From assembly GCF_001999965.1 (NCBI RefSeq), contig NZ_CP019646.1, positions 496,001-560,000 of the forward strand: a stretch of 64,000 bases of DNA, in the 5' to 3' direction. The notes beneath the pieces were generated by a model. That model did not search any database. It was not told the DNA's origin and saw only the letters and a program-made list of their open reading frames with translations. Below are positions 3,567 through 30,008 of this stretch, piece by piece (within the stretch, counting starts at the first letter, position 1; the number at the start of each line of letters is the position of its first letter). The position numbers were made by a program, and so were the translations under genes. Origin of the DNA: Limihaloglobus sulfuriphilus (lineage in GTDB: Bacteria; Planctomycetota; Phycisphaerae; Sedimentisphaerales; Sedimentisphaeraceae).

Positions 3567-5361
3567 TTTTGTAATCCTGATCGATTCTAATGTAGGTAAT
3601 AATGAAAGTGACGGCAAATACTGCTAATAGAAATAAGCCCAGTTTCGGGCTGCCCAGCAGGAGTTTACCGATTCCGAAAATGAGCGAACCTACGCATAAT
3701 GTAGCTATTGTCCATGAAATGAGAGTTCTTATTACAGGCTCATCAGAGTGATATTCTTCGTCAAGCTCTCTGATGACCGGTTTCCAGAGAATTCCAAATG
3801 GCCGGGCTTTAAGCAGGAAACTTTTTAGAAGTTCCATGTCAGTGGGCTTTGTAAGCAATGACACGATAACAGCTGTAGCCGATACAACGATTATCGCAAA
3901 GCTCATTCTGGCTCCGAGCAGATTCGGGTCGCTGCCGAAATCTGCCGCCTCATTAAATCGCAGAAGCATTCTCGCCGGCGTATCCAGTACATCGGTAAAG
4001 AGTATCAGCGGCGTTACAGTCCATGATACGGCCGTAGCCGCTAAGTCGCCTATTGCGTTAAGCCTCCACCAGAACCACCTGAGCATGGCAATTACGGCAA
4101 ACGATGCGCCGATCACAAAGGAGATCGAGAGCAGCTGCTGTATATCTCTTGCGAGAAATGATATAAGCCCTCCGGCTGCCGCCATCAGTAATGTGCCGCC
4201 GCGAGCGATCCATACGTAATGGTTCTTCGATGCGTTTTTAACGAGAAAACGTTTGTACACATCGTTTACCAGATATGATGAGCCCCAGTTGAACATGGTG
4301 CTGATCGTAGATACAAACGCGGCGAGCATCGCTGCGATGACCATTCCCCTCAAGCCTGCCGGCAGGAGCAGTGTTATCATGCGGGGATATGCGTTGTCGT
4401 CAGATACTCCCTCGCCCAGTGAGGGAAATATTATTACAGAGCATAATGCCACTATAATCCAGGGCCAGCAGACAAGCCCGTAGTAGCAGATTGTATGCAT
4501 GTACATCGCCAGCGTGGAATGTCTCCAGTCTTTGCAAGCCAGAAGCCTCTGTGCCTGATAGCCGCCGGATACCGCCACTACAAGCCAGAGAACGCCGAAG
4601 TATCCAACCGCGTTCCATAGTGACATCTGTGTCGGGCCGGAGCCGATACTTGGGGCGATGTTGAGGTTTCGCCCGTTCCAGTCGCTCATTTGAGATAGTT
4701 TTTCCGTCATAGCCTCAAGTCCGCCGACGTGCCTTACGGCCAGAATCGCCAGAATCAGAGTCCCGATTGTTGCTATGACAAACTGGAGAAAATCGCTGTA
4801 AACCACGCCGTAGAGTCCCGATAGAGTGCAAAGAATAAGGGCGGTTGCCACGACTCCCGCTGTTGAGTACATTCTGTATTCTTCCGGTATTCCCATGGCT
4901 TCGCGGCTTATTGTCTCCATTGCCTTCGTGACCCAGCCGATTATCAGCGGACAGAAAAACGCCGCCAGCATCGTGCCGGAATAAAACCTCAGAACCTTTG
5001 CTGCTTTGCCGGAGTATCTCACCTCGAGAAATTCAATATCTGTCATTACGCCCAGCCGCCGCCAAAGCCTGGCGAAAAGAACCACGCACAGGGCTGCACC
5101 GATGAGCGGTGCCCAAAACTGCCAGATATAGTAAACCCCGTACTGCCGCACCAGCGATGTTATCCATAGAGGTGTATCCGCGGCAAAACTTGTAGCTATC
5201 AGTGAGCCGCCTGCGATATACCACGGCAGAGAGCGGTTTGAAATAAAATATGATTCAATATCCGCGCTTCCTTTGCGGGTAAAAAACGCACCAACGCCCA
5301 GCATCGAAAGGATAAAGATTATTATAACCGACCAGTCAATAAAATTCAGTGTTTCTGTCAT
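3541..5361 (-). CDS. Sodium/solute symporter (SSS family)
   Basis: A 606-residue integral membrane protein with about a dozen or more hydrophobic helices, beginning NFIDWSVIIIFILSMLGVGAFF. The SSS signature region is visible in the ESYFISNRSLPWY and GGSLIATSFAADTPLW blocks. It would couple sodium influx to import of a sugar or other small solute across the inner membrane. Its 3' end overlaps the GH29 fucosidase start by 26 bases on the same strand, so fucose or a fucosylated product is a sensible guess for the cargo; this is context inference only. The C-terminus carries extra helices beyond the basic core, as in many planctomycete members. Confidence 0.92.
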   Translation of the reverse strand: MTETLNFIDWSVIIIFILSMLGVGAFFTRKGSADIESYFISNRSLPWYIAGGSLIATSFAADTPLWITSLVRQYGVYYIWQFWAPLIGAALCVVLFARLWRRLGVMTDIEFLEVRYSGKAAKVLRFYSGTMLAAFFCPLIIGWVTKAMETISREAMGIPEEYRMYSTAGVVATALILCTLSGLYGVVYSDFLQFVIATIGTLILAILAVRHVGGLEAMTEKLSQMSDWNGRNLNIAPSIGSGPTQMSLWNAVGYFGVLWLVVAVSGGYQAQRLLACKDWRHSTLAMYMHTICYYGLVCWPWIIVALCSVIIFPSLGEGVSDDNAYPRMITLLLPAGLRGMVIAAMLAAFVSTISTMFNWGSSYLVNDVYKRFLVKNASKNHYVWIARGGTLLMAAAGGLISFLARDIQQLLSISFVIGASFAVIAMLRWFWWRLNAIGDLAATAVSWTVTPLILFTDVLDTPARMLLRFNEAADFGSDPNLLGARMSFAIIVVSATAVIVSLLTKPTDMELLKSFLLKARPFGILWKPVIRELDEEYHSDEPVIRTLISWTIATLCVGSLIFGIGKLLLGSPKLGLFLLAVFAVTFIITYIRIDQDYKNARENKDM

Positions 5362-12845: not shown

Positions 12846-13173
12846 AATTACTTATCCTTATTACTCTACCATATTTTTACTTTACTCTGCCTTCAAAAAC
12901 ACTTGAAAGCACTTTACCTACGTTATAGTTTATAAATTATGTTGGTCATGATAAGTTTTTTTTTTGAAAACTGATAAATAAGGAAAATTGTGACAATAAT
13001 TAAGGCAAAATGTAATTATTGTGCTGAATTTTTTCAAAAACTATTGTCTGATAGGTCTTTATATCGCGTTTAAATTTGAGATAACACAAAATTTTACTAT
13101 CGTATAATGACTAAGATTGATAAGATTCCCATCTGAGGTCAGTTTACAGAAAGAAACTTTACGGGCAGATTAT
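12846..13173. other. Divergent intergenic region, AT-rich, with palindrome
   Basis: A 328-bp AT-rich region between the corrinoid gene and the rightward hydantoinase-family gene. The one conspicuous element is a 10-bp inverted repeat at 12993-13022. No cobalamin riboswitch (no recognisable B12-box) was seen. Confidence 0.6.
12993..13022. promoter_or_regulatory. Candidate operator: 10-bp inverted repeat in divergent promoter region
   Basis: ACAATAATTA and TAATTATTGT are exact reverse complements separated by 10 bases (half-site centres 20 bp apart, about two helical turns). It is AT-only apart from the outer C/G and lies between two divergently transcribed genes, which fits a dimeric regulator site; no T-tract makes it a terminator. 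The regulator is unknown. Confidence 0.4.
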
Positions 13174-15180
13174 ATGAATAAAACAATTCAAAGCTATGAA
13201 AGTCAAACCGCTGCGGGTCTCGGCATCGATGCGGGGGGAACCTACACCGATATAGTCGTTTTCAGTTTCAGAGAAAATCGAATCCTTGCCAAATCCAAAG
13301 CCTTAACTACCAAATGGGACTTTACAGAGGGTATCGAGGCGGCTTTGGACAAGATAGATTCCGGGCTTCTCTGCGATGTGGGGCTTGTAAGCGTATCAAC
13401 CACACTGGCAACAAACGCTATTGTCGAAGGGCACGGGCAGAAGGTCGGTCTTCTGCTGATGCCGGCATACAGCAGGTTTGATGATTTAGAGCTGTTCAAC
13501 AGGCCCGCTGCAGTTGTTAAAGGCCAGATGGAGATTGACGGCAGTGTTGTCGAGCCTGTGGATCCCGACGAGATAGCCAGGACGGCGGAAGATATGATAA
13601 AGACTCACGATGTTAAGGCCTTTGCCGTTTCAGGCTTTGGCGCAACGATAAATCCTTCTCACGAAATAGAGGTTATGAAAATCCTCCGCAGCCGCACAGG
13701 CCTTGGCGTAACCTGCGGGCATGAGCTCTCACAGATGCTGAACTTTAAGACACGTGCGGCGACAGCGGTTCTCAACGCCAGGATAATACCCTATGTCGAG
13801 AATCTCTTCGCTAATCTGGAGTCGGCACTCGCCGGCAGAAACATAAATGCGCCGATAATGGTTGTCAAGGGTGACGGCAGCCTGATGAGCGTAGAAATGG
13901 CCAAAGAGAGGTCGGTTGAGACGGTTTTCTCCGGCCCGGCGGCCAGTGTTGCCGGCGCTAAAAAGCTCACAGGCCTGAAAGATGCCCTTGTCGTAGATAT
14001 CGGCGGAACTACAACCGATACCGCCGCGATAAAAGACGGCAAGATCGAAGTCTGTGATGAGGGAAACATAGTAGCCAATGTCCACACGCACGTAAAGGCT
14101 CTTAATATGCGGACAAAGGGGCTTGGCGGCGACAGCGCGATTAACATATTGGAGCGTAAGATAGCAATAGGACCGATGCGGGCAACACCTGTATCATTTC
14201 TCGCGGCAAGAACCCCGGAAGTCTCCCGGGCTTTGGATTATATTTTCAGACAGAAAGAGCTCTATTCAAATGACACAAGAGCAATGCAGATTCTGTTCCT
14301 GACAAGTCACCGAGAAGATATCGCACTGAGCGATCTTGAAAAGAATATCATTGAGCTGCTCAAAAACAGGCCCCATTGCCTGGATGAATTAGCGGCTAAA
14401 CTTGACCGGAAGCACTGGAGCTTTATCCCTTACAGAAACCTCTTCATGCACAATATTGTCAGTGTTGCCGCGCTTACCCCTACGGATATTCTCCACGTTC
14501 AGGGCAAAATCAGGTTATGGGATTCTCATACAGCAGATATCCTGTGCCGGTTTTATGCGGATATGATGAACCTTACATGCAGTGAATTTTGTGATTCAGT
14601 TCTGGGGTCCTTCACCAGCAGCATTGCCGTCGAGCTGTTGAAAAAGCTGATGGATAACACTCTTGAGCCGGATTCGATTGATACATCCGGAGCGGCGCAG
14701 GCTATTATTGGCAAATGGCTCGCAGGGGCTGAATCAGAACTCTCGATTAACATGAACCTCTCATCTCCGATAGTTGGCATTGGAGCTCCGACGGGCCGGC
14801 TTTTGCCTGATGCGGCAAAGTTGTTCAACACAGACTGCATAATACCGCCAGATGCTGATGTTGCAAATGCTCTCGGAGCGATTACGAGCTCCGTTTCAGT
14901 TTCAAAGACGGTAAAGATAACCGCCAGGGAAGATGTTTTTTATATTGAGGGTATTCCCGATTGTCCGGGCTTTGAAGACTACGCCGAGGCCAGAAAACAC
15001 GCATTAGAGAAGCTGGTTGAGATAGTTAACGAGCTTGCACATAAGTCTGGTACGCTCAATCCGGAAGTTGAAACCAGCGAGATTGAGAAAACGGCCAAAA
15101 ATAAATACGGCACGGATGTGTATCTCGGCACACTGATAACCGCAACTGTCACAGGCCGGCCGGCGGTTATGCAGGCTTAG
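13174..15180 (+). CDS. Hydantoinase/oxoprolinase-family protein (ASKHA fold)
   Basis: A 668-residue protein from ATG 13174; an in-frame TTG at 13117 would add 19 residues but has no ribosome-binding site. GLGIDAGGTYTDIVVF near the N-terminus is the phosphate-1 loop of the HyuA N-terminal domain. Later blocks VSTTLATNAIVEG, FSGPAASVAGA and VVDIGGTTTDTA are the hallmark HyuA/oxoprolinase motifs of the actin-like ATPase fold. Family members couple ATP hydrolysis to amide-ring opening, but the usual partner subunit (HyuB-like) is absent. The divergent neighbour is a corrinoid protein, and ASKHA proteins are also used to reactivate corrinoid proteins, so such a role is possible though unproven. 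Confidence 0.88.
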   Translation: MNKTIQSYESQTAAGLGIDAGGTYTDIVVFSFRENRILAKSKALTTKWDFTEGIEAALDKIDSGLLCDVGLVSVSTTLATNAIVEGHGQKVGLLLMPAYSRFDDLELFNRPAAVVKGQMEIDGSVVEPVDPDEIARTAEDMIKTHDVKAFAVSGFGATINPSHEIEVMKILRSRTGLGVTCGHELSQMLNFKTRAATAVLNARIIPYVENLFANLESALAGRNINAPIMVVKGDGSLMSVEMAKERSVETVFSGPAASVAGAKKLTGLKDALVVDIGGTTTDTAAIKDGKIEVCDEGNIVANVHTHVKALNMRTKGLGGDSAINILERKIAIGPMRATPVSFLAARTPEVSRALDYIFRQKELYSNDTRAMQILFLTSHREDIALSDLEKNIIELLKNRPHCLDELAAKLDRKHWSFIPYRNLFMHNIVSVAALTPTDILHVQGKIRLWDSHTADILCRFYADMMNLTCSEFCDSVLGSFTSSIAVELLKKLMDNTLEPDSIDTSGAAQAIIGKWLAGAESELSINMNLSSPIVGIGAPTGRLLPDAAKLFNTDCIIPPDADVANALGAITSSVSVSKTVKITAREDVFYIEGIPDCPGFEDYAEARKHALEKLVEIVNELAHKSGTLNPEVETSEIEKTAKNKYGTDVYLGTLITATVTGRPAVMQA

Positions 15181-15228
15181 AATTGTATTTTTATAATATT
15201 TGAACTTTTTAAATCGCGGCGCATAGTG

Positions 15229-15234
15229 TATAAT
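15229..15234 (+). promoter_or_regulatory. -10 box for tmRNA gene
   Basis: A perfect TATAAT 38 bases before the mature tmRNA 5' end. A good -35 box is not visible at 17 bp, so only the -10 element is called. Transcription from it would give a short leader removed by RNase P. Confidence 0.55.
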
Positions 15235-15271
15235 AACATTTATTAAGATTTAACTGCTCTTTAACAAAAGA

Positions 15272-15628
15272 GGGGGCGACTGGTATCGACCGGATAGGTA
15301 GATAGTCAGGCGGCATGCCCAGGATGACAGTAGGCCTGGATAATCATCTGTCAACTAAACTTTTAATTGGCGCAAATAACTACGCCATGGCTGCCTAATA
15401 AATTGCAGCCCGTCTTATTACCGTCTCTTCCCGCGGATGGTTTTAAGACGTCGATTAGCGGGATAAGCGCTTTTCCTGCCTTGTGTTAAGCGACGAAAAC
15501 TTAAAGGCTGGTTCTCAAAGCAGTCTGTCTCTGGACGGTTTTGAGGATGAGATCAAATCATGAGACTAAGCATGTAGAAACCTGTCTTGAAATATCACGG
15601 GACGGGGGTTCGAATCCCCCCGCCTCCA
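15272..15628 (+). ncRNA. ssrA: Transfer-messenger RNA (tmRNA)
   Basis: The 5' end GGGGGCGA pairs with the 3' end CGCCTCC A as a tRNA-like acceptor stem (seven pairs, one G-U). The T arm GGGGGTTCGAATCCCCC precedes it at the 3' end; CCA is not encoded. The tag reading frame starts at the resume codon GGC (15369) and reads G-A-N-N-Y-A-M-A-A before two TAA stops at 15396 and 15399, giving a tag AGANNYAMAA with the charged Ala. It rescues stalled ribosomes and marks the product for proteolysis. The penultimate residues are M-A-A instead of the common L-A-A. A one-piece tmRNA; no circular permutation. Confidence 0.96.
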
Positions 15629-15955
15629 GTAGGGAAAGCCTGTTTTGTTGAAATGTCAAAGATTTTAAACTGCTGTGGGTTTATTGGTATATAACAGTTT
15701 TCCGGTTGTATTTCCGGGTAACTGTCGGTTAGTGGTGTCAAGGAGGTTGAAAGTCTTTTTTTCTGCTGAATTTTCGTTGTAACTTTATCCTGTATTTGTG
15801 ATAATATATTTATCGGGCGTTGCTGCGCGGATTGGAATCCTCGCTGCCGGGTGAGTTATTTGTTGTATTGGAATGAGTTTACAATCAATAAATGACAGAA
15901 TTAAACGTCTGTTTGATACCTTTAAATATGAGTTTTCCTATTTAAGGAACCTGAA
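15629..15955. other. 327-bp gene-free region downstream of tmRNA
   Basis: No credible gene. It carries a candidate promoter at 15777-15805 for the downstream GNAT/ATP-grasp gene. No strong terminator hairpin for tmRNA was recognised. Confidence 0.6.
15777..15805 (+). promoter_or_regulatory. Candidate sigma-70 type promoter for the GNAT/ATP-grasp gene
   Basis: TTGTAA at 15777-15782 and GATAAT at 15800-15805 with a 17-base spacer, each five of six matches to the sigma-70 consensus hexamers. This would give a ~145-base leader to the TTG start at 15956. Confidence 0.45.
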
Positions 15956-17914
15956 TTGAATAAATATTTTATCAGGGAAGCCATACAGGACGACCTTGAA
16001 TTTATTGAGGAACTTGAAAACAGCTGTTTTCCCGCAAGCCGACGCAGCACCAGGCGGTCTCTAAAGCAGAGCATAGAAAGCGAGAGTCAGGTAGTCTGGA
16101 TTATACAGGATTCCTCACTGCGGTTCTGTCCTGTGGGCAGCGCTTCAGTTATATGCTACAAGCATTCGCTGCGGATATATTCCATCGCCGTAGCCGCACA
16201 GCACAGGGGCAGAGGCATCGGGGAGTTTCTTTTAAATTACATTGTCGATTTTGCCGCATCTATGGGCTTTGAGAAGATAACTTTAGAGGCGGACAGTGCC
16301 TCGCAGAATCTCGTTGACTGGTACCGGAAATTTTCATTTGAAATCAAGGCTCTGCTAAACGATTATTACGGTCCGGGCGAGCACGCATACCGCATGGAAA
16401 AACCGCTTGAGTACCCCAGCGGGAGTTTTTGTGATTCGGGTAATGTTATTGTTGTGGACGATTCCGCTCTTAAATCCTTTTGTATAGAGGGTATAGAAAC
16501 AGTTCCGGCAAGCGAGTACCTCTCTAAGGATCGGTTCAAAAACAGTGACAGGTGCAGGGTTCTCAACCTGTGCGGCTCGTATAGAACGCACTCATTGGGG
16601 TACTATGTCTCGCTTCTTGCCGCGGCTAGAAACCATAAGATCGTGCCTTCAGTTATGACTCTCAAAGATATTTCCAGCATCCCCATAGCCCAGAGCGTGC
16701 TTGAGGATGAGCGGGATTTTTTTGCCAGGCAACTGGAAAAGGTCAAATCGAACAGGATCGAAGTTACTGTGATTTTAGGCAAGTCGATTCAGCGTAGAAA
16801 TTCTGAAATAGCAAAAAAACTTTTCTCTCTGTTTGAAATCCCTTTTTTCAGAATAACATTTGCAAAACATAAAGAATGGCGTATTGAGAAGATAAAAATC
16901 CTCAGTTTTGACGATTTGCAGAGGGAGATTCCCGAGTTGCTCGATGCAGCTGTTATAAACTTCTTCCAGAAAAAACGTTACAGCCGCACACGCCTCAAGA
17001 ATTATAAATATGACCTGGCGATTCTGGTCAACCCTGATGAAAAGACACCGCCTTCGTGCCCTCAGGCCCTAAAGAGATTCAAAATGGCCGCGGCAGAAGT
17101 TGGTTTTTATGCAGAGTTTGTAACCAAATCTGATTACCGGCGGATTTGTGAGTTTGATGCTCTTTTTATCAGAGAAACCACATCAATCGAAAACCATACA
17201 TATCAATTTGCCAGAAACGCCTATACAGAAGGGCTGATTGTTATTGACGATCCATGGTCAATCATGAGGTGCGCAAATAAGATATATCTCTACGAAAGGC
17301 TCAACAAGGCAAATATCAGACAGCCGAAATCCTGGCTCATAGCGAAAAATAAACTTAACGGTTCATTTTTCAATCAGCTCAAGTTTCCGCTTGTTCTGAA
17401 GCTGCCGGAGAGTTCTTTCTCACTGGGTGTATATCTGGTAAAAGATGAAAAAGAGCTTGAGTTCAGACTCGAAAAGATGCTGAAGAAAAATGACCTGGTT
17501 ATTGCTCAGGAATTCCTCACGTCTGATTTTGACTGGCGTATCGGCATTCTTGGCAACAGCCCGCTTTTTGCCTGCAAATATTTCATGGCGCACGGCCACT
17601 GGCAGATATACAACTGGCAGAACGACGACAGCTCTGATTTTACGGGGCTCTCTGAATGTGTGCCTTTTGATAATGTGCCGGCCGGCGTTCTCAAGACAGC
17701 CCTGCGGGCGGCGTCTTTGATAGGTGACGGTCTTTACGGCGTTGATGTCAAAGAAATCAAAGGCCTGCCTTATGTGATTGAAATAAACGATAACCCCAAT
17801 ATCGACCATAATATTGAAGACCAGCTGCTCAAGGATGGCCTGTACGTGAAAATCATGAAGTCTTTTTATGACCGTATTGAGAAGGAACGCAATGAAACCC
17901 GCTACCTCATCTAA
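15956..17914 (+). CDS. GNAT acetyltransferase fused to RimK-type ATP-grasp ligase (RLAN domain)
   Basis: A 652-residue fusion. The start is TTG at 15956, supported by AAGGA seven bases upstream. Residues 1-150 are a GNAT N-acetyltransferase: VAAQHRGRGIGEFLL (79-93) is the acetyl-CoA pyrophosphate loop. About 160-320 matches the RimK-like ATP-grasp N-terminal (RLAN) region (LNLCGSYRTHSLGYYVSL at 203-220). About 350-640 is an ATP-grasp domain ending in VIEINDNPNIDHNIED, the metal-binding Glu/Asn block. Such proteins ligate amino acids to carboxylates, here perhaps with N-acetylation of substrate or product. A SET-domain gene follows 36 bases later, so they probably act in one peptide- or protein-modifying pathway. 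Substrate unknown. Confidence 0.88.
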   Translation: MNKYFIREAIQDDLEFIEELENSCFPASRRSTRRSLKQSIESESQVVWIIQDSSLRFCPVGSASVICYKHSLRIYSIAVAAQHRGRGIGEFLLNYIVDFAASMGFEKITLEADSASQNLVDWYRKFSFEIKALLNDYYGPGEHAYRMEKPLEYPSGSFCDSGNVIVVDDSALKSFCIEGIETVPASEYLSKDRFKNSDRCRVLNLCGSYRTHSLGYYVSLLAAARNHKIVPSVMTLKDISSIPIAQSVLEDERDFFARQLEKVKSNRIEVTVILGKSIQRRNSEIAKKLFSLFEIPFFRITFAKHKEWRIEKIKILSFDDLQREIPELLDAAVINFFQKKRYSRTRLKNYKYDLAILVNPDEKTPPSCPQALKRFKMAAAEVGFYAEFVTKSDYRRICEFDALFIRETTSIENHTYQFARNAYTEGLIVIDDPWSIMRCANKIYLYERLNKANIRQPKSWLIAKNKLNGSFFNQLKFPLVLKLPESSFSLGVYLVKDEKELEFRLEKMLKKNDLVIAQEFLTSDFDWRIGILGNSPLFACKYFMAHGHWQIYNWQNDDSSDFTGLSECVPFDNVPAGVLKTALRAASLIGDGLYGVDVKEIKGLPYVIEINDNPNIDHNIEDQLLKDGLYVKIMKSFYDRIEKERNETRYLI

Positions 17915-17954
17915 TTCAGAAACCGGAGACGTTTACAGCAGGTGCCAGGGATGA
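17892..17954 (+). CDS. Possible 20-codon micro-ORF linking two genes
   Basis: An ATG at 17892 with AAGGA five bases upstream opens a 20-codon frame. It starts inside the end of the ATP-grasp gene and stops with TGA overlapping the ATG of the SET gene (ATGA at 17951). The arrangement would let ribosomes re-initiate on the SET gene, which has little ribosome-binding site of its own. The peptide has no recognised motif, and it may be a coupling device or chance. Confidence 0.25.
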   Translation: MKPATSSNSETGDVYSRCQG

Positions 17955-18562
17955 TTCACCCCCAAACCACTATAAGATATATCTGCCCTGAGGTAGGGAT
18001 TGGTGTTTTCGCCCTGGCCGATATTCCCCGCGGGACAATAGTTGTTGTAAGGGACAGCTGTGATCTGTGTATAACTGAGCAGCAGTTTGGCCGAATGCCT
18101 CAGCCGCTGAAAAGTTTTACTGAAACGTATATGTATCATGACAAAGACGGTAATCTTATACTAAGCTGGGATCATGCTAAATACATGAATCACAGCTGTT
18201 TAAGCAATACTATGATGACAGGCTGCAATTTTGAAATCGCGGTCAGGGATATTTCCGCCGGCGAAGAAATAACCACTGAATACGGATTGCTCAATATCCA
18301 GCAGCCGTATTCGATCGATTGCGGCGCTCCTGACTGCCGAAAGATTGTCAAGGCCGATGACATAGATACTTATGGAGATATCTGGGATCAGCTGATAAAA
18401 GAGAGTATGCTTTTGATAAATAAAGTTCCTCAGCCGCTCTGGCCGCTGGTTGAGACTTCAACGAAAGAGAGCATAAAATCGATGCTTGCAAATCCGGATG
18501 ATTACATTTCGGTAAAAACTATTAAATGGCCTGTCAATGAGACAGATGCCGCCGCCGGCTAA
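17951..18562 (+). CDS. SET domain-containing protein (putative lysine methyltransferase)
   Basis: A ~203-residue SET protein. YICPEVGIGVFALADIPRGT is the N-SET strand-turn region, NHSCLSN supplies the S-adenosylmethionine-binding Asn-His, and GEEITTEYG carries the catalytic Tyr. A C-x(4)-C pair just after (DCGAPDC) resembles a reduced post-SET element. The preferred start is ATG 17951; a GTG at 17942 would add three residues. It lies just behind a GNAT/ATP-grasp fusion on the same strand. Bacterial SET proteins methylate lysines of proteins or accompany peptide-modifying enzymes; the target is not predictable. Confidence 0.88.
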   Translation: MIHPQTTIRYICPEVGIGVFALADIPRGTIVVVRDSCDLCITEQQFGRMPQPLKSFTETYMYHDKDGNLILSWDHAKYMNHSCLSNTMMTGCNFEIAVRDISAGEEITTEYGLLNIQQPYSIDCGAPDCRKIVKADDIDTYGDIWDQLIKESMLLINKVPQPLWPLVETSTKESIKSMLANPDDYISVKTIKWPVNETDAAAG

Positions 18563-21822: not shown

Positions 21823-24800
21823 TCATATTACTCGCTCAAGGCTGTTATTTCCTGTATTCTCATCAGACTTTTGTAAAATTGCCTGTAAGTCTATGAAATG
21901 CTGCTGCACAAACCTCAATTTTTTCTCTTCATTATTTAACTGTACGGGGAATTCCAGCAGTTCTTCATCAGTATTCCTTTCCATTTCAAGGATAGCCTTC
22001 TTGAGCTTATCGAGTTGATTAGCATCTTTTTTTACTAATTCCGTATATTTAGCCGAACAAAGAGGACAAAGCAGCAGTTTGTTAGCTTCATCTTCTTTTG
22101 GTAGATTTTTAAACATTTCTACAGCTTCAAAGTAGTACCCGCCGTCCTTTTTTTCAAAACTCACGCTCCTGTCGTCAAGACCTTCCTGGCAAAGCTGGCA
22201 AACCAGAACGCCATCAATATTTTTGTAGTTTTCCTGCAGATAGTATCGAGGGTCTAAGTTTGTTTTGCTCGTTCGAACATTACGCTCTCTTTTCTCACGT
22301 GTTACATCTTGCAGGTTTGAGTATTGCTTAGCTTTTCTCTCTGCACGTCTATCCGGGCTACTTGATGGTCTGGAAGGATATTCTGGCATACTTTCATTTT
22401 CGATATTATTTTGTAGTCTATGGTTTTCTGTTATTTGTACCGCCATCACCTGATCAGTTTTGTCTTTATGCATGGACGGCTTCTCTATGGATGTTTCTGT
22501 TCCATTTAATATAACTACTTGATGGTCGGTTTTTCTGGTGTTAATTATGGGATCATCTTCAGTTTTGAGGGGACAATATTGTTCTAACTGTAATGGCTTA
22601 TCATCAATCAGATACTTAACTTCGTCTGGAATTCGCCAACTATTTTGCTTGATTCTAAATTCAGAGTTATCTGACCCAAGTACTAATTCTATCCAGACAG
22701 CCAAATCTCTATACGCACGGTTTGACATTAATGCACGAGCTAACACATGAGCAATCGGGTTCTTTACAAAGTCAAATTTACCTTTTAAAATAAACAGTAT
22801 CTTTTTGTCTTTATCCCAGAAAGAATCCGCCGAAATTGTCTCTATGAAATTGTTTAGTTGATAATTTACCTGGAGAGATGAAACTATGACTTCATTTGTA
22901 TCACAAAGTACATTGACAATCTTATTATCGAGCAATCTCTGATAATCGATCTCACTTTTTTCCTTTATCCATGTCAGAATAAGTATCTTAGCAGATTTAG
23001 TGAGAAATTTAGGTTTTTCTATGACATTATCTTCTTTGTATTCTGCTATATTAGCAATTACTGAATCTGATAAAAAAGGTAAATGAAAAGTTTTGTAAAC
23101 TATCGACCAGTAGTTGAACGAATCTTTTTGAGGACGCCATGCAAAAGAAATATTCTTGTTTTTTTTAAATATCTCTCTTAGATTACCATCATCAGGGACA
23201 TATACTTGCGAGGGTTTCTCAAATGATTTGTCCTGTGTCCATATTTTTGCTTTAGATAAGAAACTTTTCCACCAATCTGGGCGATCCTCTTCGTTCATCT
23301 GGCAGATAGTTCTTATTTCACGATAGATGGCATTTAGTTTATTTTCGATTTGTTCTTTATTATTGCCAGGTTTTTCCTGCAGTTTTAACCAATAATTTGC
23401 ATAGACTTCATTGTCGACATCCTCTTTTACTTTTAGTTTTTTTACAAAAAAGTCTTTAAGGTCAGGGTATAAGCTTTCAAGATAAACAAAATCATTACCC
23501 AATATATTACTGCGGTCTTCCCATATAACTTCAGCAGGTGTTGCCCATTTAGATTCTGAATCCGATGGTATAAAAATAATATTATTATTACAGAGACGAT
23601 CTATTACATCAGACTCCAATTCTCGCGAATCAAGAGTTCGATATATTCGACAGGCAAGGTCTTTAGAACCAGACTTGTTTAATGTACTTTGCTCAAGTAC
23701 TGATATAAGCTCTTCTACGGTAGTCTCAGTTCTAATACCTAACTGTCTGACAGCATCTTCGGAAAGCTCCCCTTCGAAATATGGAACTGAATCACCGAGA
23801 ATTTCTTTGATTTCGGCACGGAAAATAAAAGTCTCAGAAGGTTTACAAAAACCTTTAGTTGTGCACAACCAAGGCTTGTTTTTCAATGTCACTAGTAATT
23901 CGGAACAAAATAGTTCCGATTTCCAGCTGTAGAAAAAATAACTAACCTTAGTCCATGCCCAAGACTTTATAGGGGTTTGGTTAATCCATTTAACTAAACT
24001 AAACGATATCTTATTTTTCTCTTCTTTAGAGTAATCGTTAAAAGAGCTTATAACGGAAAAAGGACGATAGTTCTTAATCTTGCGACTATAATTTGAACGG
24101 TGAGTTTTCTTAAAACAAACCTCCTCATAATGGTTTAAGGAGCTGTCATTCCCATGACCTTCAAATATCACAGGTGGTGGATAAGCCCTGACACCTAACT
24201 TTTCCCATAATTTCTGAAGTTTTTTTATAGTTTCAGTTTTGTTCAATTCAATATAGGCTCCTGAAAGCCACACTAGGTGCTTTCTATCTTCATATGAAAC
24301 AAAAATGTTCTGCCATCCTGTTTCATGGTCAAGGTTGATGGGGGTTGCTACGGCCTTTATTTGAGGTTCGATATTGTCCGTACTAAACAGGCTATTTTCA
24401 TCGTTAAGTTTATAAGATAATCTGCAGCTGCCATCTGAAAGTAAAACAGGTATGTCTTTGAATTTATCATACATGTCTTGAAATTGTGAAAGGAAGACAG
24501 TTGCGTAAACAAGATCAGACTCACTGATATGCTCGTAATTATCCCTTAGCCAATTCGATACATCAATAGCATAATTGTCTTTCGAAAAATTGTAAACATT
24601 AAGTGTTTTGGTCATCCATTTCCGGAGCTCAGAATCATCCACTATTCTTTCTAAGAAATCTTGTTTCAGGAATGCCAATGGCACACGAACGAACTCGGGG
24701 ACACTTGCAAGAATCTGTTTAATATTATCATCACATTCAAAATAAATAGGTTGTTCATTGTCACATGACCATCGAAGTTTCCCCTCAACAACAACCGGGA

Positions 24801-25089
24801 CTACCGGACAACCAGTCAAGTCATTATCATTGTCATATGATCTAAGATATTGATAGCATTCGAGTAGCCAATCGTAATCATGCTTATCAATCCATTCAAT
24901 ATCTTTAAAACTTTCTATGACATAATCAAAAGGTAGCTTTCTAACGCCCACTGCTTTCAACTCTTCTTCAAAATGAGCAATCTCTTTTTTTACAAGTCTT
25001 TGTTCGAGAAAGATTAGAGGGAAAACATCATTTTCCAAAAGTCCTCTAAATTTGCGGTGTGGCTTATAAGTTTTTTCAGGTTTACACAA
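21823..25089 (-). pseudogene. C-terminal part of a split giant sacsin-type ATPase protein
   Basis: A 1088-residue open frame whose first available start is a TTG at 25089 without a ribosome-binding site. The same frame is open further upstream to a TGA at 25231-25233, encoding residues such as KYAIYATIPTKTN that continue naturally from the ATPase encoded just upstream. It is therefore best read as the second part of one ~1480-residue protein interrupted by a one-base shift. Most of it has no recognised domain (helical and beta, rich in Lys/Glu/Asp/Trp). Near the C-terminus CQLC (964-967) and CPLC (1008-1011) form a zinc-binding, treble-clef-like pair. Base composition is visibly AT-rich against its neighbours, suggesting transfer. 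Confidence 0.75.
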
Positions 25090-25160
25090 TAAATTATCTG
25101 GTTCTGTAAGGATTATCTCATGATTCTTGAGTTCATTCTGAACACCTTCAACTACTGCAT

Positions 25161-25233
25161 TTAAAAAAGAATAGTTAGTCTTTGTGGGTATAGTGGCATA
25201 TATGGCATATTTTGATCTATTGACACCAAATCA
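25161..25233 (-). other. Probable frameshift site joining the two ATPase fragments
   Basis: The ATPase frame stops at 25161-25163 while the downstream frame is open back to 25231. Adding one base to the T3 run of GATTTGG (minus strand, 25228-25230) would join ...CLQSD to FGVNRSKYAIYATIPTKTN and on into the 1088-residue frame. The shift must lie within this 73-base overlap. Confidence 0.75.
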
Positions 25234-26276
25234 CTTTGCAAGCAAGATAAAACACCTTCTCTATAGACTATTGAGATGCAATCCCGGAGCCACTCATTCC
25301 ACGATTCTTCTTCGTGAATACCTTCACGAGAACTAACAAGTAGAAAATCCGCGTTTATTAAAAATGGGATACCTGTTTCTTCCCATACAGGTAAATAAGC
25401 AAACAACTTTTGCTGCGAAGACTTTTTATTTAAGGGCAAGGCTACAGAAACTACGCGTTTTTGTGTTTTAGGTCTTTTGTCCGAATAAGCGTATTCAGGT
25501 TTGTCAAATTCTTCTGAATTTATCCAGTACACTGCTGTCCTGAATCCTTCAGCGTTTTTACAATGAATCAATTTAACAAGAGGGTAAGATTCATCTTTTT
25601 TCTCAATGACAATCTTGTAATTGTCTTTTGGCGTATCAACTACTATTTCTATTTTTTTTATTCTTTTTAGAAATAGAATTGTTTCCGGTTCTATTTCTTC
25701 TAAATACTTAAGGAGATTATTCACTGCATCATTTTCTTTGTTTAATGGTAATATTATGGTAGTCCAGTCCCGGTTAATCTCATTTGGAATAATGTCGATC
25801 CATTTGGGAACTATGTAGCCCAATTTAGTTTCTTCATCGTTTTCTGGAAGAGAAAATTGGAAACCATTCGAAAATATAGATGGTGAATTTGTTATCTTGA
25901 AAACAGACTTAAAGCCTATTCCTTTTTCTCCAATATATCCTTGAGATTTGTCTTTTGTTGATTTTCCAATTTTACAAATAGCATCAACATGGCTTTCTTC
26001 AAAACCAGTTTCATTGTTTTCAATGATCAGCGAAATTTCCTTTTTGCGTTGCAAATTGATCTCAGCTATTTTAAAGCGAAGCGTTGGACTAACATCATCA
26101 GCATAATTATTATCCTCTGCATTCTGGATAAGTTCGAATATAAAATGAGTGTCCTTTGAGTATAAGTCCTCTGCAAGCGTTTTAATACTGCTCGAATAGC
26201 CTTCCAATGTACGCTGTGTGTTTTTATTGGGACTGTAATCATCCCTTATCTTATTAATAAACTCTTTTTTATCCAT
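25161..26276 (-). pseudogene. Sacsin-type HSP90-like ATPase domain (N-terminal part of split gene)
   Basis: The first 371 codons of the split protein. FIFELIQNAEDNNY is the GHKL/HSP90 N-box with the Mg-binding Asn and the sacsin-type variant L-I-Q-N-A-E-D. IENNETGFEESHVDAICKIGKSTK matches the G1 region and GYIGEKGIGFKSVFKITN the G2 region with the ATP lid. FLINADFLLVSSREGI is a typical sacsin-family block following the ATPase. HSP90-like ATPases of this type occur in bacterial conflict operons and in eukaryotic sacsin. The gene begins five bases after the stop of the HEPN-SNF2 helicase gene on the same strand, so both are in one operon. The frame ends prematurely at 25161 by frameshift. Confidence 0.85.
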
Positions 26277-26281
26277 GTTGG

Positions 26282-29200
26282 CTAATGCCCTATCTTAATT
26301 ATTCCATAAGCAACAGGTTCTGTATGTATATCGGCTTTTTCCTTAGCCTCTTCGATTTTTGATTTCCGCCGCTGGTAAGCAGCCTCTGTATTTTCAAGCT
26401 GGCTTTGTTTCATTCGTCTTATCTTTTCGTTATCAGCAGAATCCAGTTGGCTTTGCAGAACAGCTGATTTTGCGTTATGACTTGTTCTAAGGCTGTCTAG
26501 TTTAATATTGCAAACTTCTATAGTTTTTTGTTTATGCTCTTTGTTTGCATTCTTCCATAGTGTGTAGTGTCTCTTTTCTACATCTGAATAATCGTCCTTC
26601 GAGACCGTGCCGCTGTATTCATAATCCACAGTCTCCTGCAGCAAAGCGAATAAATTCTCTTCTAAATCAGGATCTTCGCAAACAGCTATAAGCTCCATAT
26701 CTTGAACAAAGCCCTGTTTTGCCCAGGTAAATATCATGAATCTGTACTCACCCGGTTGGGTAATATCTGTTGATACCCTGACCGTTAAGCATGACATTTT
26801 CTTTGTATCAACAATCATGACAGCCTGTTTTACCAGCGGATGAAGCGGCATTATAAATTGAGCTTCTCTGTTGTCAGAAGCGCATTCACCGTCAAAGGTT
26901 AACCTGCAAACCTGGTCCGCACCTTCGAGCCATCGCTGCCACTGCCTGTTTAACCTTGACTTATCTAAAGATAGCGACTTGAAATCCGCCAGAAGTCTCT
27001 GCCGGGCTTCCTTAGACAGGCGAAGGGTCTTCAATGGCTGCCGGCCGAGTATATATTCCCCTTCGCCGCACCTGCTGAGAAGATATGTCTCCACCAGAAG
27101 CCTTATTGCCTGCGGGCTGAGCCAGTAACTCTCGCCGGACTCCAGTTTTTGCTGAGCATTATTTGTTGGCACCTGAAGCCCGAAAAACTGGTGCTGGTGA
27201 TCCTCAAGCTCTCTTTGTTTTTCAATCTGGAGTACCTCATTGTCAGCAAGCTGTTTTAGCTTTTCCTGTCTCTGCTGGTCTGTAAGTTCCAGGTTGGTAG
27301 CAATGTCGCGAAGTTTTTCGGTTATTTCGCCCAGTATTTCTTCACAATCGCCTATGCTTTCTTTGAAAACTCCTATTCGCAACAGACAGCGGGAATAGAT
27401 ATCAGCGTCAATAGTACCCTTCACAATCAGGTTGTATATTGCCACAGCCTCGCTCTTCTGACCCCGTCTGTCAATACGGCCTATTCTCTGCTCAATTCGC
27501 ATTGGATTCCACGGCAGGTCATAATTAACCATTGCATCGCAGAATTGATAATCCAACCCCTCACATCCGACTTCTGAGAACAGCAGAACATCTATGGCAT
27601 CCTCATCAGTTTTATCTTTCTCGAATCTGTTCCGAAGTGTCACCCGTACCTCATCAGGTATGTCGCCATGTATCAAACCAATCCTTATGCCTGCGCCTTT
27701 TAGTTTGCCGGCGAGATAGTTCAGAGTATGCCTGAAAGAGCTGAAAATCATCAATTTGTTGTTCGGCATAGAAATTTTCTGATCAACTATTTTTTTCAAA
27801 GCATCATATTTTGGATCCTGTTCTGGAAGTTTGTGCAGACATTCTTCTATCTCGGCGGATAAACTTCGTAGATATTCAATATCCTCACCTGTCAAATCAA
27901 TTTCATCATCAGATATGCTGCAGTTGGCTATCGCTGATAGCTTTTTGTCGGTAATTTCTTTGATGAATGGTGTCAGACCATATACACAGCTTGATAGCTG
28001 TCGGCGAATAGTAGAGGTCATCCACTTAATGTTTATTCCGCCGTGACTGCGGCCTAAGCGTTCAATTTCAAATTGAAGTATTGCATCATAGAAGATTCGC
28101 TGTTCATTGGTGAAATCAACCTCAACTGTCTCGACATTACGTACACAAAAATCAGCAATGTCTCTGCGGCGTGTACGATTTATTATTGAAGCGAAACTGT
28201 GAAAACCTTCTATTGCAGATATGGCAGAGACTCTCGCTTTAGAATCCAGAGTATCCTTATTGAGCTTTTTGGTCAAATTTTGGAATTCTGTGTTCTTATA
28301 GGCGGTTTGACCATATCGGGTACATTCCGCTTTCTGCAGGGCATTTAAAGCTTTTATCTGCCAGTCATGGCCGCCGATCCTTGCAAAAGATAAGGCTTTA
28401 TTGATATGCGGATTTGGCTCTACCAGATACTTAAAGCTGTCCAGATCGACTATAAGATCAGGGCGTAGAAGATTCAGCAGAGTGTAAAGGTCACTGTTTC
28501 CCATTTGTACAGGCGTAGCGGTAAGAAAAACCACAGATTCGGCGTTGCGGCAAAAACACTCTACAGCTCTATAACCATATGTATTACTGTTTCTTATGTG
28601 ATGTGCCTCATCTACTATCACCATATCAAATTTTATGTCATCGGCTAAATCTTCTATACCTTTTAAATGGCGTTTCCTGTCTCCTTCAACTGTTATTTCG
28701 CTGAATAATGAATATGTTAGAATTGTTTTATTATGCTGTTGAGGCCAGCACTCTTTGTATGTCTCGTCTAAACAGTACTTTAAGCTCTTACCGTCAAGTT
28801 CAGTAAAATCCTCATCAAACCGCTTCATTTCGCTGAACCACTTTTTCTCAGTAACAAGCGGTTTGGGACAGATAACCAAGACGGATTCTACTTCCTTGCG
28901 GGCTTGAAGCTCGCGCATTATCAATCCGGCCTCTATAGTTTTACCTACTCCAACACCGTCAGCTATCAAAATTCGCGGCTGTTCCGATTTGATAATCTTC
29001 ATTACCGGCATAAATTGATAAGGGACAATATCAATTCTGGCGGCGTTAAGAGAGTATAGTTTATCTACAGACGGGTTTTTCAATTGTAATGCGGTTAATT
29101 TGCGGTGCAGTTGGTCTATTGTGGATTTAGATTGTTTGCTGGTTTCTGCCGGCTCGATCTGTGATTCATAGAAAATTTTATTATCACCATCTATGAATAC

Positions 29201-29812
29201 GGTTATTATAGCTTCAGTGTCTGTTAGTTTTATTCCAGTAACAGCTCCTTTTTTGTTCTTATCACTCTTAAGGCATATGATATTGCCGATTTCTAAGCCT
29301 GTAGCGGTTTTTTTCATGGTTTCTGTTGTTAAATTAGACTTTTCACTGGGAGTTGACGGTACCTCTTTTAAAAGATTTTTTTTCAATTGTCCGGCAGCTT
29401 CCTGCACCAATTTGTTTTCGTCCCAGCTTTCTGCAAATCGCTGAATTGTGTCAAGATCACGGTTAACATCTTTTGCGTTTATACCCTCACTGGAAACATG
29501 TGCCCATCGGTTCCTCACAATTTTCATTTCGTGCAGGTAACATTTGTTTTCAGGAGTTAGGCTCGGCTCTTTATCACTTAAGTTATACCAGTTTTTTTCA
29601 AATATTCGCAGTAAGGCAGCTAGGTCAAGCCTTGCTAAAGATTTGATATTACTGCGTTTAACCATTTCATTCTGCTGATAAGATAAGTTTGGAATTACAT
29701 ACTCTTTCCACCATTTTCCCGACATTTTTAACAATCTGCTCTCCAGCCACTTGCAAAGCCCCTCGCTTATAAGCTGTTGAAGTGCTACCATTTTCGGCGT
29801 TACATCGTTCAT
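26282..29812 (-). CDS. SNF2-family helicase with N-terminal Swt1-type HEPN domain
   Basis: An 1176-residue protein. The first ~130 residues fit the Swt1-family HEPN domain, with RNRWAH at 100-105 matching the R-N-x-x-x-H catalytic motif of HEPN ribonucleases. A small beta region (~175-220) follows, then an SNF2/RapA-like helicase: GVGVGKT (motif I, Lys291), DEAH at 401-404, FLTATPVQMG (motif III), and RIEQRIGRIDRRGQ (motif VI). The C-terminal ~300 residues are helical with a long coiled-coil. It should be a nucleic-acid translocase coupled to a possible RNase. It is the first gene of an operon with a sacsin-type HSP90-like ATPase, a combination suggesting antiphage or other conflict function. 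No restriction methylase is adjacent. Confidence 0.9.
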   Translation of the reverse strand: MNDVTPKMVALQQLISEGLCKWLESRLLKMSGKWWKEYVIPNLSYQQNEMVKRSNIKSLARLDLAALLRIFEKNWYNLSDKEPSLTPENKCYLHEMKIVRNRWAHVSSEGINAKDVNRDLDTIQRFAESWDENKLVQEAAGQLKKNLLKEVPSTPSEKSNLTTETMKKTATGLEIGNIICLKSDKNKKGAVTGIKLTDTEAIITVFIDGDNKIFYESQIEPAETSKQSKSTIDQLHRKLTALQLKNPSVDKLYSLNAARIDIVPYQFMPVMKIIKSEQPRILIADGVGVGKTIEAGLIMRELQARKEVESVLVICPKPLVTEKKWFSEMKRFDEDFTELDGKSLKYCLDETYKECWPQQHNKTILTYSLFSEITVEGDRKRHLKGIEDLADDIKFDMVIVDEAHHIRNSNTYGYRAVECFCRNAESVVFLTATPVQMGNSDLYTLLNLLRPDLIVDLDSFKYLVEPNPHINKALSFARIGGHDWQIKALNALQKAECTRYGQTAYKNTEFQNLTKKLNKDTLDSKARVSAISAIEGFHSFASIINRTRRRDIADFCVRNVETVEVDFTNEQRIFYDAILQFEIERLGRSHGGINIKWMTSTIRRQLSSCVYGLTPFIKEITDKKLSAIANCSISDDEIDLTGEDIEYLRSLSAEIEECLHKLPEQDPKYDALKKIVDQKISMPNNKLMIFSSFRHTLNYLAGKLKGAGIRIGLIHGDIPDEVRVTLRNRFEKDKTDEDAIDVLLFSEVGCEGLDYQFCDAMVNYDLPWNPMRIEQRIGRIDRRGQKSEAVAIYNLIVKGTIDADIYSRCLLRIGVFKESIGDCEEILGEITEKLRDIATNLELTDQQRQEKLKQLADNEVLQIEKQRELEDHQHQFFGLQVPTNNAQQKLESGESYWLSPQAIRLLVETYLLSRCGEGEYILGRQPLKTLRLSKEARQRLLADFKSLSLDKSRLNRQWQRWLEGADQVCRLTFDGECASDNREAQFIMPLHPLVKQAVMIVDTKKMSCLTVRVSTDITQPGEYRFMIFTWAKQGFVQDMELIAVCEDPDLEENLFALLQETVDYEYSGTVSKDDYSDVEKRHYTLWKNANKEHKQKTIEVCNIKLDSLRTSHNAKSAVLQSQLDSADNEKIRRMKQSQLENTEAAYQRRKSKIEEAKEKADIHTEPVAYGIIKIGH

Positions 29813-29854: not shown

Positions 29855-29885
29855 TGTATAATAATTTAATATAAGAGAATGTCAA
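29855..29885 (-). promoter_or_regulatory. Candidate promoter of the HEPN-SNF2/sacsin operon
   Basis: On the minus strand a perfect TTGACA (-35, 29880-29885) and TATACA (29855-29860) separated by 19 bases, about 43 bases upstream of the helicase ATG. The spacer is longer than ideal, so activity may be weak or regulated. Confidence 0.4.
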
Positions 29886-29980: not shown

Positions 29981-30008
29981 GGCTCCGGCCGCCAGAACGG
30001 CCGGAGCC
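29981..30008 (-). terminator. Strong hairpin, probable terminator for leftward transcription
   Basis: A perfect 11-bp inverted repeat GGCTCCGGCCG / CGGCCGGAGCC with a 6-base loop; on the minus strand it is followed by CGTTTTATTGTT. It would end transcripts running left from larE, although it lies ~345 bases past the larE stop. It may also insulate the helicase operon promoter. Confidence 0.65.

Follow-up and report, generated by a model that had tools for sequence, protein, structure and literature searches.

We studied a pair of adjacent minus-strand genes in a stretch of 64,000 nucleotides from the genome of Limihaloglobus sulfuriphilus (contig NZ_CP019646.1, positions 496,001 to 560,000). 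We call this stretch the window, and coordinates in it are counted from its first letter. The first gene of the pair encodes an SNF2 helicase with an N-terminal HEPN domain, and the second, which begins 5 bp further on (the gap is 26277-26281), encodes a large protein with a sacsin-type ATPase domain of the GHKL family (Table 1). An earlier, sequence-only reading of this DNA had described both the spacing and the architecture of the helicase, including an RNxxxH motif at residues 100-105, and these are exact. It also assigned the genes to two transcription units, but they probably form one operon, because of the 5-bp gap, the promoter-like site before the helicase gene, and the terminator of the preceding unit.

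Table 1. Features of the helicase and sacsin-type genes in the window
Feature	Position	Strand	Evidence or remark
HEPN-SNF2 helicase, DrmD/RapA-like, 1176 amino acids	26282..29812	-	Open reading frame, Pfam, PADLOC
HEPN_Swt1 domain, residues 13-128	29429..29776	-	Pfam PF18731, 55.6 bits vs cutoff 27.5, 7.8e-15
HEPN catalytic motif R-N-R-W-A-H, residues 100-105 (R100-N101-x-x-x-H105)	29498..29515	-	
SNF2 ATPase lobe 1, residues 279-596, with Walker A GVGKT and DEAH box	28025..28978	-	PF00176 SNF2-rel_dom, 1.8e-21
Helicase_C lobe 2, residues 668-784, with motif VI QRIGRIDR	27461..27811	-	PF00271, 1.2e-18
Sacsin/TmtA-type N-terminal open reading frame, 371 amino acids	25161..26276	-	SACS 4e-18; P_loop_sacsin 2.1e-21 (above cutoff); TmtA 1.5e-96
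GHKL (Bergerat-fold) ATPase core, residues 31-137, with N-box ELIQNAEDN and lid GEKGIGFKSV	25866..26186	-	Best stretch of Pfam SACS
Single-nucleotide frame break in the sacsin-type gene	~25203-25239	-	Homologs L032, L029, L092, and L045 change frame here
Sacsin/TmtA-type C-terminal open frame, stop to stop	21823..25230	-	TmtA 1.6e-45
Degenerate HNH (McrA-like) zinc domain, C-terminal	21886..22263	-	Profile match to EcoKMcrA 6ghc
Promoter-like site TTGACA-N16-TATTAT	29858..29885	-	Consensus scan, 11/12 matches; ~45 bp 5' of the helicase ATG; alone no proof of function
Terminator-like hairpin, 12 pairs	29981..30008	-	Ends the preceding unit

We scanned 84,980 species genomes with an alignment of the window helicase and three relatives as the query, and we kept 80 loci (41-49% identical; loci are cited by L number). 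All three Pfam domains of the window helicase (HEPN_Swt1, SNF2-rel_dom, and Helicase_C) exceed their cutoffs. Across 84 sequences, the G, K, and T of SNF2 motif I, the D, E, and H of motif II, and motif VI are invariant. The window helicase also has what is expected of a Swt1-like HEPN RNase, namely the domain with its Rx4-6H motif. This motif is nearly invariant in the 66 HEPN-bearing relatives (R in 65, N in all 66, W in 64, A in 65, and H in 65), so it is not there by chance. The HEPN domain in the window looks active and is a predicted RNase. The top PADLOC model for the helicase is DrmD (PDLC02623, 7.1e-110), and the closest solved structure is RapA (4.9e-36).

For the second gene, the sequence-only reading correctly recognized a sacsin-type GHKL ATPase, as the matches to SACS and TmtA confirm, but it described a single protein of about 1480 residues and so overlooked a frameshift. 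The gene consists of two open reading frames, of 371 and about 1115 amino acids, that lie in different frames. The first is 60% identical to L032 over 358 amino acids, and the second is 39% identical to L092 over 1167 amino acids. Intact homologs of the same long type are encoded by single open reading frames (1501 amino acids in L032, 1519 in both L029 and L045, and 1523 in L092). In pairwise alignments, these four homologs match the first frame up to around residue 346-365 and the second frame from around its residue 5-10, and because the alignments switch frames there, we place the break at about 25203-25239. The final 16-25 or so amino acids of the N-terminal open reading frame are off the ancestral frame, and the TAA at 25161 is just the first stop that is reached past the break. 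The first common start codon in the second frame is a TTG at 25089. The break may be a real mutation or a local assembly error, as both fit the data. (There is no sign of a generally error-ridden assembly, since rpoC and the housekeeping genes on either side of the pair are uninterrupted in this genome.) With its sacsin-type gene frameshifted, this genome's copy is probably inactive, barring an assembly error at the break. Split helicase or sacsin open reading frames also occur in L030, L041, L050, L057, L059, L061, and L107, all of which are assembled bins; these could be due to assembly error or to inactivation.

The ATPase site is conserved: E44, Q47, N48, D51, and the GxxGxGFK lid are invariant in 34 sacsin partners (numbered as in G002, another genome of the family in which the pair is intact). 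A model of the G002 sacsin protein (mean predicted local distance difference test or pLDDT of 81.6) matches structures of Hsp90 and of sacsin SR1. At the other end of the protein, the last ~170 amino acids match the HNH domain of the nuclease EcoKMcrA (6ghc) by profile (3.6e-8). A model of this domain from the window (pLDDT 89.6) gave nothing significant by itself in Foldseek, and the rows listed by VIA-align are all HNH-containing proteins, with EcoKMcrA at the top (Z = 5.3, which is weak alone). Because of the profile match and the VIA-align rows, we consider HNH the likely fold. However, the domain keeps only the Cys pairs that are zinc ligands, and it does not qualify as an HNH nuclease: the catalytic and metal-binding His are gone in nearly all of 58 sequences, with V or another residue and E or another residue at the His-His site, and with A or S at the helix His. 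All 57 sequences that extend over position 1111 of the second frame, near the C terminus, have a single His there. In L077, the Poribacterial sacsin partner (13107..16841) has a C-terminal Hfq-like domain (5.3e-7), which hints at RNA binding.

The two genes are rarely apart. In 77 of the 80 loci, the sequence continues for 300 bases or more past the helicase, and in 75 of these, a sacsin open reading frame follows on the same strand, mostly overlapping the helicase gene or within a few bases of it (median gap about -4 bp). In one of the two exceptions (L039), the contig stops 681 bases past the helicase; its near twin L059 has the sacsin gene beyond an extra gene that is common to both. Related-looking extra genes of about 205-215 amino acids lie between helicase and sacsin in L039 (13525..14172), L059 (3935..4582), and L056 (8901..9509); the copy from L059 has no match in Pfam. 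In L046, a transposase-like gene (3748..4971, minus strand) separates the two. Our profile found no sacsin open reading frame adjoining the distant DrmD-like helicases of L019, L024, L025, and L026, so the association is specific to the branch of the window helicase. The pair is spread patchily across many bacterial phyla and one archaeal bin, and it is also adjacent on plasmids of Ensifer, Rhizobium, and the archaeon Methanomethylovorans, one of which is conjugative. Within the family of L. sulfuriphilus, two of five genomes have it (four members besides the window's were searched, and G002 is the second). We are nearly certain that the two genes form one functional unit.

A scan of viral contigs with the helicase gave no match. 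A human fecal scaffold that is labeled "Bacteriophage sp." (L108, MT835838) holds both genes; as its record has been neither verified nor annotated, we treat it only as a candidate for carriage by a phage. We also note a sacsin relative that lies in a defense cluster but has no SNF2 helicase: a Sulfuricurvum plasmid (L027, NC_014754, 7228..15763) encodes, one after another, a NERD protein, a DUF3883 protein of the sacsin type, and qatABCD.

The HEPN domain is less constant than the sacsin partner. It is fused to the helicase in 65 of the 80 loci, it is separate in L107, and it is absent from about 13, so it is not the sole effector. On the tree of these proteins, its distribution requires at least 7 changes. 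Copies without HEPN show other modules: in L074, DUF4926 is on the helicase and a DUF6883 gene lies upstream. In HEPN-less rhizobial loci, a small gene overlaps the start of the helicase (L020 9286..9840, L021 9294..9824, and L022 9291..9821). We considered that it might encode a stand-alone HEPN, but neither Pfam nor the sequence agrees; it looks sigma-factor-like by eye and has no Pfam match.

The sacsin part itself is exchanged between helicases. Among 84 pairs of loci whose helicases are at least 70% identical, the N-terminal and middle parts of the sacsin protein are less than 40% identical in 45, and in 30 of these 45 pairs, the C-terminal 175 amino acids are nevertheless at least 50% identical. 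(These counts are approximate, because frameshifted ends, as in L061, which we excluded from the summary, or longer C termini, as in L077, lower some of the C-terminal comparisons.) For example, the helicases of L074 and L097 are 72-98% identical throughout, while their sacsin proteins are 21-42% identical up to about residue 900 and 64-78% identical beyond it. L034 and L031 show the opposite pattern, in which the N-terminal part is retained and the C-terminal part differs. The closest relatives of the long-form sacsin in the window (L092, L032, and L029) are scattered over the helicase tree. Still, the distances between helicases and between sacsin proteins are correlated overall (Spearman 0.55, versus 0.23 or less in shuffles). 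The N-terminal and middle parts are probably an exchangeable recognition module.

Several lines of evidence relate the pair to defense. All 34 of the sacsin partners that we tested match the PADLOC models for TmtA, the protein of the anti-phage system Tiamat. In L087, from Butyrivibrio (Lachnospiraceae), the gene order is BrxC, PglX, PglZ, HEPN-SNF2, sacsin, and a PDC-S68-type helicase. A PglZ gene like that of L087 lies 1 bp upstream of the pair in L103, and BrxL is upstream in L075. Other copies are near restriction genes: L029 has a type I HsdR, and L034 and L072 have genes that resemble it; an Mrr-type restriction endonuclease gene precedes the pair by 1 bp in L034, and L037 has a gene like it; and L096 has a type III methylase. 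The PDC-S68-type helicase, which is a candidate in PADLOC, adjoins nine copies and is immediately downstream in several, and RecB-like or Mrr nucleases adjoin several copies. The sequence-only reading proposed a conflict or defense operon and suggested tabulating co-occurrence. It held that homologs that occur singly and never beside other defense genes would refute it; the pair stays together (75 of 77) and several copies are in defense loci. The proposal is thus supported by the match to TmtA, the patchy spread across phyla, and the copies in BREX or restriction loci and on a conjugative plasmid. From gene order, family match, and neighbors, we think it quite likely that the pair has a role in defense.

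The surroundings in the window are ordinary. As the sequence-only reading noted, the block is AT-rich relative to its neighbors (34-45% GC versus 44-52% in the flanks), and no methylase, integrase, or nuclease flanks the pair. The flanking genes are housekeeping: argG, MlaD, SET, a LarE-like PP-loop protein, tRNA-Thr, RtcB, a KDO transferase, Sir2, and RhaA. No empty insertion site could be defined among nine relatives that carry both argG and the LarE-like gene, because these genes are not adjacent in those relatives. The window also contains a tmRNA gene (15272..15628, plus strand) with the tag peptide GANNYAMAA, and the SET-domain protein (3.3e-12; 17942..18562, plus strand), which is near the MlaD gene and argG, belongs to a family that is rare in bacteria.

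Our best explanation as a whole is that the pair is a two-component system against phages (or mobile elements), a helicase-coupled Tiamat, and we have middling confidence in it. GHKL ATPases close on ATP, HEPN domains cleave RNA, and RapA acts on RNA polymerase. The conservation patterns suggest, about as strongly, that the sacsin protein senses while HEPN-SNF2 executes. The sacsin/TmtA-type protein would be an exchangeable sensor that detects some cue of infection by means of its GHKL ATPase and its long middle region. It would change shape with ATP, as is established for the superfamily (HSP90 and MutL), and the signal might pass via the conserved dead-HNH zinc domain, which would dock on the helicase or on DNA. 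In short, recognition would close the ATPase, and the dead HNH would then license the motor and the RNase. The RapA/DrmD-like motor would engage invader DNA or the transcribing polymerase and then position or release the HEPN RNase, which, given its near-invariant RNxxxH, would cut RNA and halt the infection. Versions without HEPN would rely on other attached or neighboring modules. A more specific proposal, which we put forward as speculative and rather doubtful, is a distinct immune system in which an exchangeable sacsin/HSP90-like sensor recombines at a conserved C-terminal dock, a RapA-like HEPN helicase destroys nascent phage transcripts at the transcribing RNA polymerase, and single-gene Tiamat is the sensor's relative.

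Some observations weigh against a helicase-coupled Tiamat. This very genome has a broken sacsin gene, about 13 of the 80 relatives do without HEPN, and ordinary genes surround both the window pair and the G002 pair, so neither is a defense island. A defense gene is nearby in at least 15 of 75 loci, but this is a raw count without a matched control, and many contigs do not extend far enough for a verdict. The roles of sensor and effector are assigned from conservation patterns only, and the rapid divergence of the N-terminal and middle parts could reflect escape from phage inhibitors instead.

As an alternative, the pair might be restriction-like, with the SNF2 motor and the sacsin ATPase recognizing and processing invader DNA (in the manner of DrmD or McrA) and HEPN as a back-up suicide effector. 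The helicase is nearest to DrmD models, the C-terminal domain has a likely McrA/HNH fold, HEPN can be missing, and RecB-like or Mrr nucleases are beside several copies, so we regard this as possible, if doubtful. But the catalytic His of the HNH is lost in nearly all sequences, no methylase is constantly beside the pair, and most copies (65 of 80 have the fusion) have no conserved candidate nuclease other than HEPN. It is unlikely that the pair does housekeeping or stress work, in which stalled transcription or RNA quality control would be the task of a RapA-like HEPN motor and a chaperone-like ATPase. RapA is the nearest solved structure to the helicase, the sacsin partner in L077 has an Hfq-like domain, and the HEPN census describes animal sacsin as a chaperone (PMC3710099), but only two of five genomes in the family have the pair, related copies are in distant phyla, on plasmids, and inside BREX operons, and the sacsin part is exchanged. 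We consider it quite unlikely that HEPN-SNF2 is a toxin that the sacsin protein restrains: the two genes form a tight operon that includes a HEPN RNase, and HEPN toxins of toxin-antitoxin systems are known (PMC3710099), but both proteins exceed 1000 amino acids and have full ATPase motors, and an intact HEPN-SNF2 beside a frameshifted sacsin gene should be intolerable for a simple toxin-antitoxin pair. Finally, about 3.3 kb without another stop after the break, and the possible TTG start at 25089, might suggest that the two sacsin frames are joined by programmed frameshifting or act as two subunits, but this is very unlikely: four homologs need no shift, they switch frame upstream of T6-TAA (which rules out programmed frameshifting at that site), we recognized no recoding site, and the split sacsin open reading frames in L030, L050, L057, and L059, from metagenome bins, break elsewhere.

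Tiamat is a catalogued anti-phage protein, and its family has a large, horizontally spread branch that is coupled to an SNF2 motor bearing a HEPN RNase. The pair offers concrete effector and motor residues and a split between sensor and effector that can be tested. Closely related helicases with exchanged sacsin halves recall how restriction systems swap their specificity subunits, and on this pattern, HSP90-like ATPases would form a class of phage sensors that can be exchanged. In animals, sacsin combines this ATPase with HEPN in a single polypeptide, so the pairing in bacteria may also bear on the origin of sacsin.

The sequence-only reading could not match the genes to a named system. This holds for the pairing, which is not described in the literature and defense catalogues that we searched (most subscription papers and the DefenseFinder models were outside this search), but not for the parts, because every tested sacsin partner matches TmtA and the helicase is related to DrmD. 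Among systems with a similar ATPase, the Shedu protein VcSduA has an N-terminal GHKL ATPase that is proposed to control a defense effector (PMC12137116); unlike in our pair, this effector, a PD-(D/E)xK nuclease, belongs to the same polypeptide as the ATPase, and there is no helicase partner. The fusion protein WQE_15321 also has a Swt1-type HEPN on a SWI2/SNF2 ATPase, as in the window helicase, and is marked as active in the HEPN census, which mentions no sacsin partner for it in the passages covered (PMC3710099). BrxHII of BREX and the Hma/DUF499-type (BREX-related) helicases share the RapA-like SNF2 architecture. The HEPN of BREX-related systems is attached to the DUF499 ATPase rather than to the helicase, and the text of that study does not mention sacsin or HSP90 (PMC12839542). 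The BREX core genes brxC, pglX, and pglZ are not beside the window pair; they are present around L087. The nearest models to the helicase are those for DrmD of DISARM, but it scores 300.8 bits for NF038317 (NCBIfam) against a cutoff of 610, and unlike DrmD, it carries an extra N-terminal HEPN. DrmA, DrmB, DrmC, and the DISARM methylase are neither beside the window pair nor among the leading families of 108 neighbor proteins. We reject membership in DISARM, given the score below the cutoff and the lack of partner genes; by its profile matches, the helicase is a divergent relative of DrmD. Tiamat (TmtA; PADLOC PDLC03964-03972) also has an N-terminal sacsin-type GHKL ATPase in a protein of over 1000 amino acids, and both halves of the window gene match it. 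The TmtA-type protein, with its ATPase and long C-terminal part, is present here, while an intact coding sequence is absent. Tiamat is reportedly a single-gene system, whereas the gene here does not stand alone: it has an obligate SNF2 helicase neighbor (adjacent in 75 of 77 loci), which usually carries HEPN. Tiamat is among the systems of unknown mechanism (PMC10482375), and from these similarities and differences, we judge the pair to be a helicase-coupled version of it.

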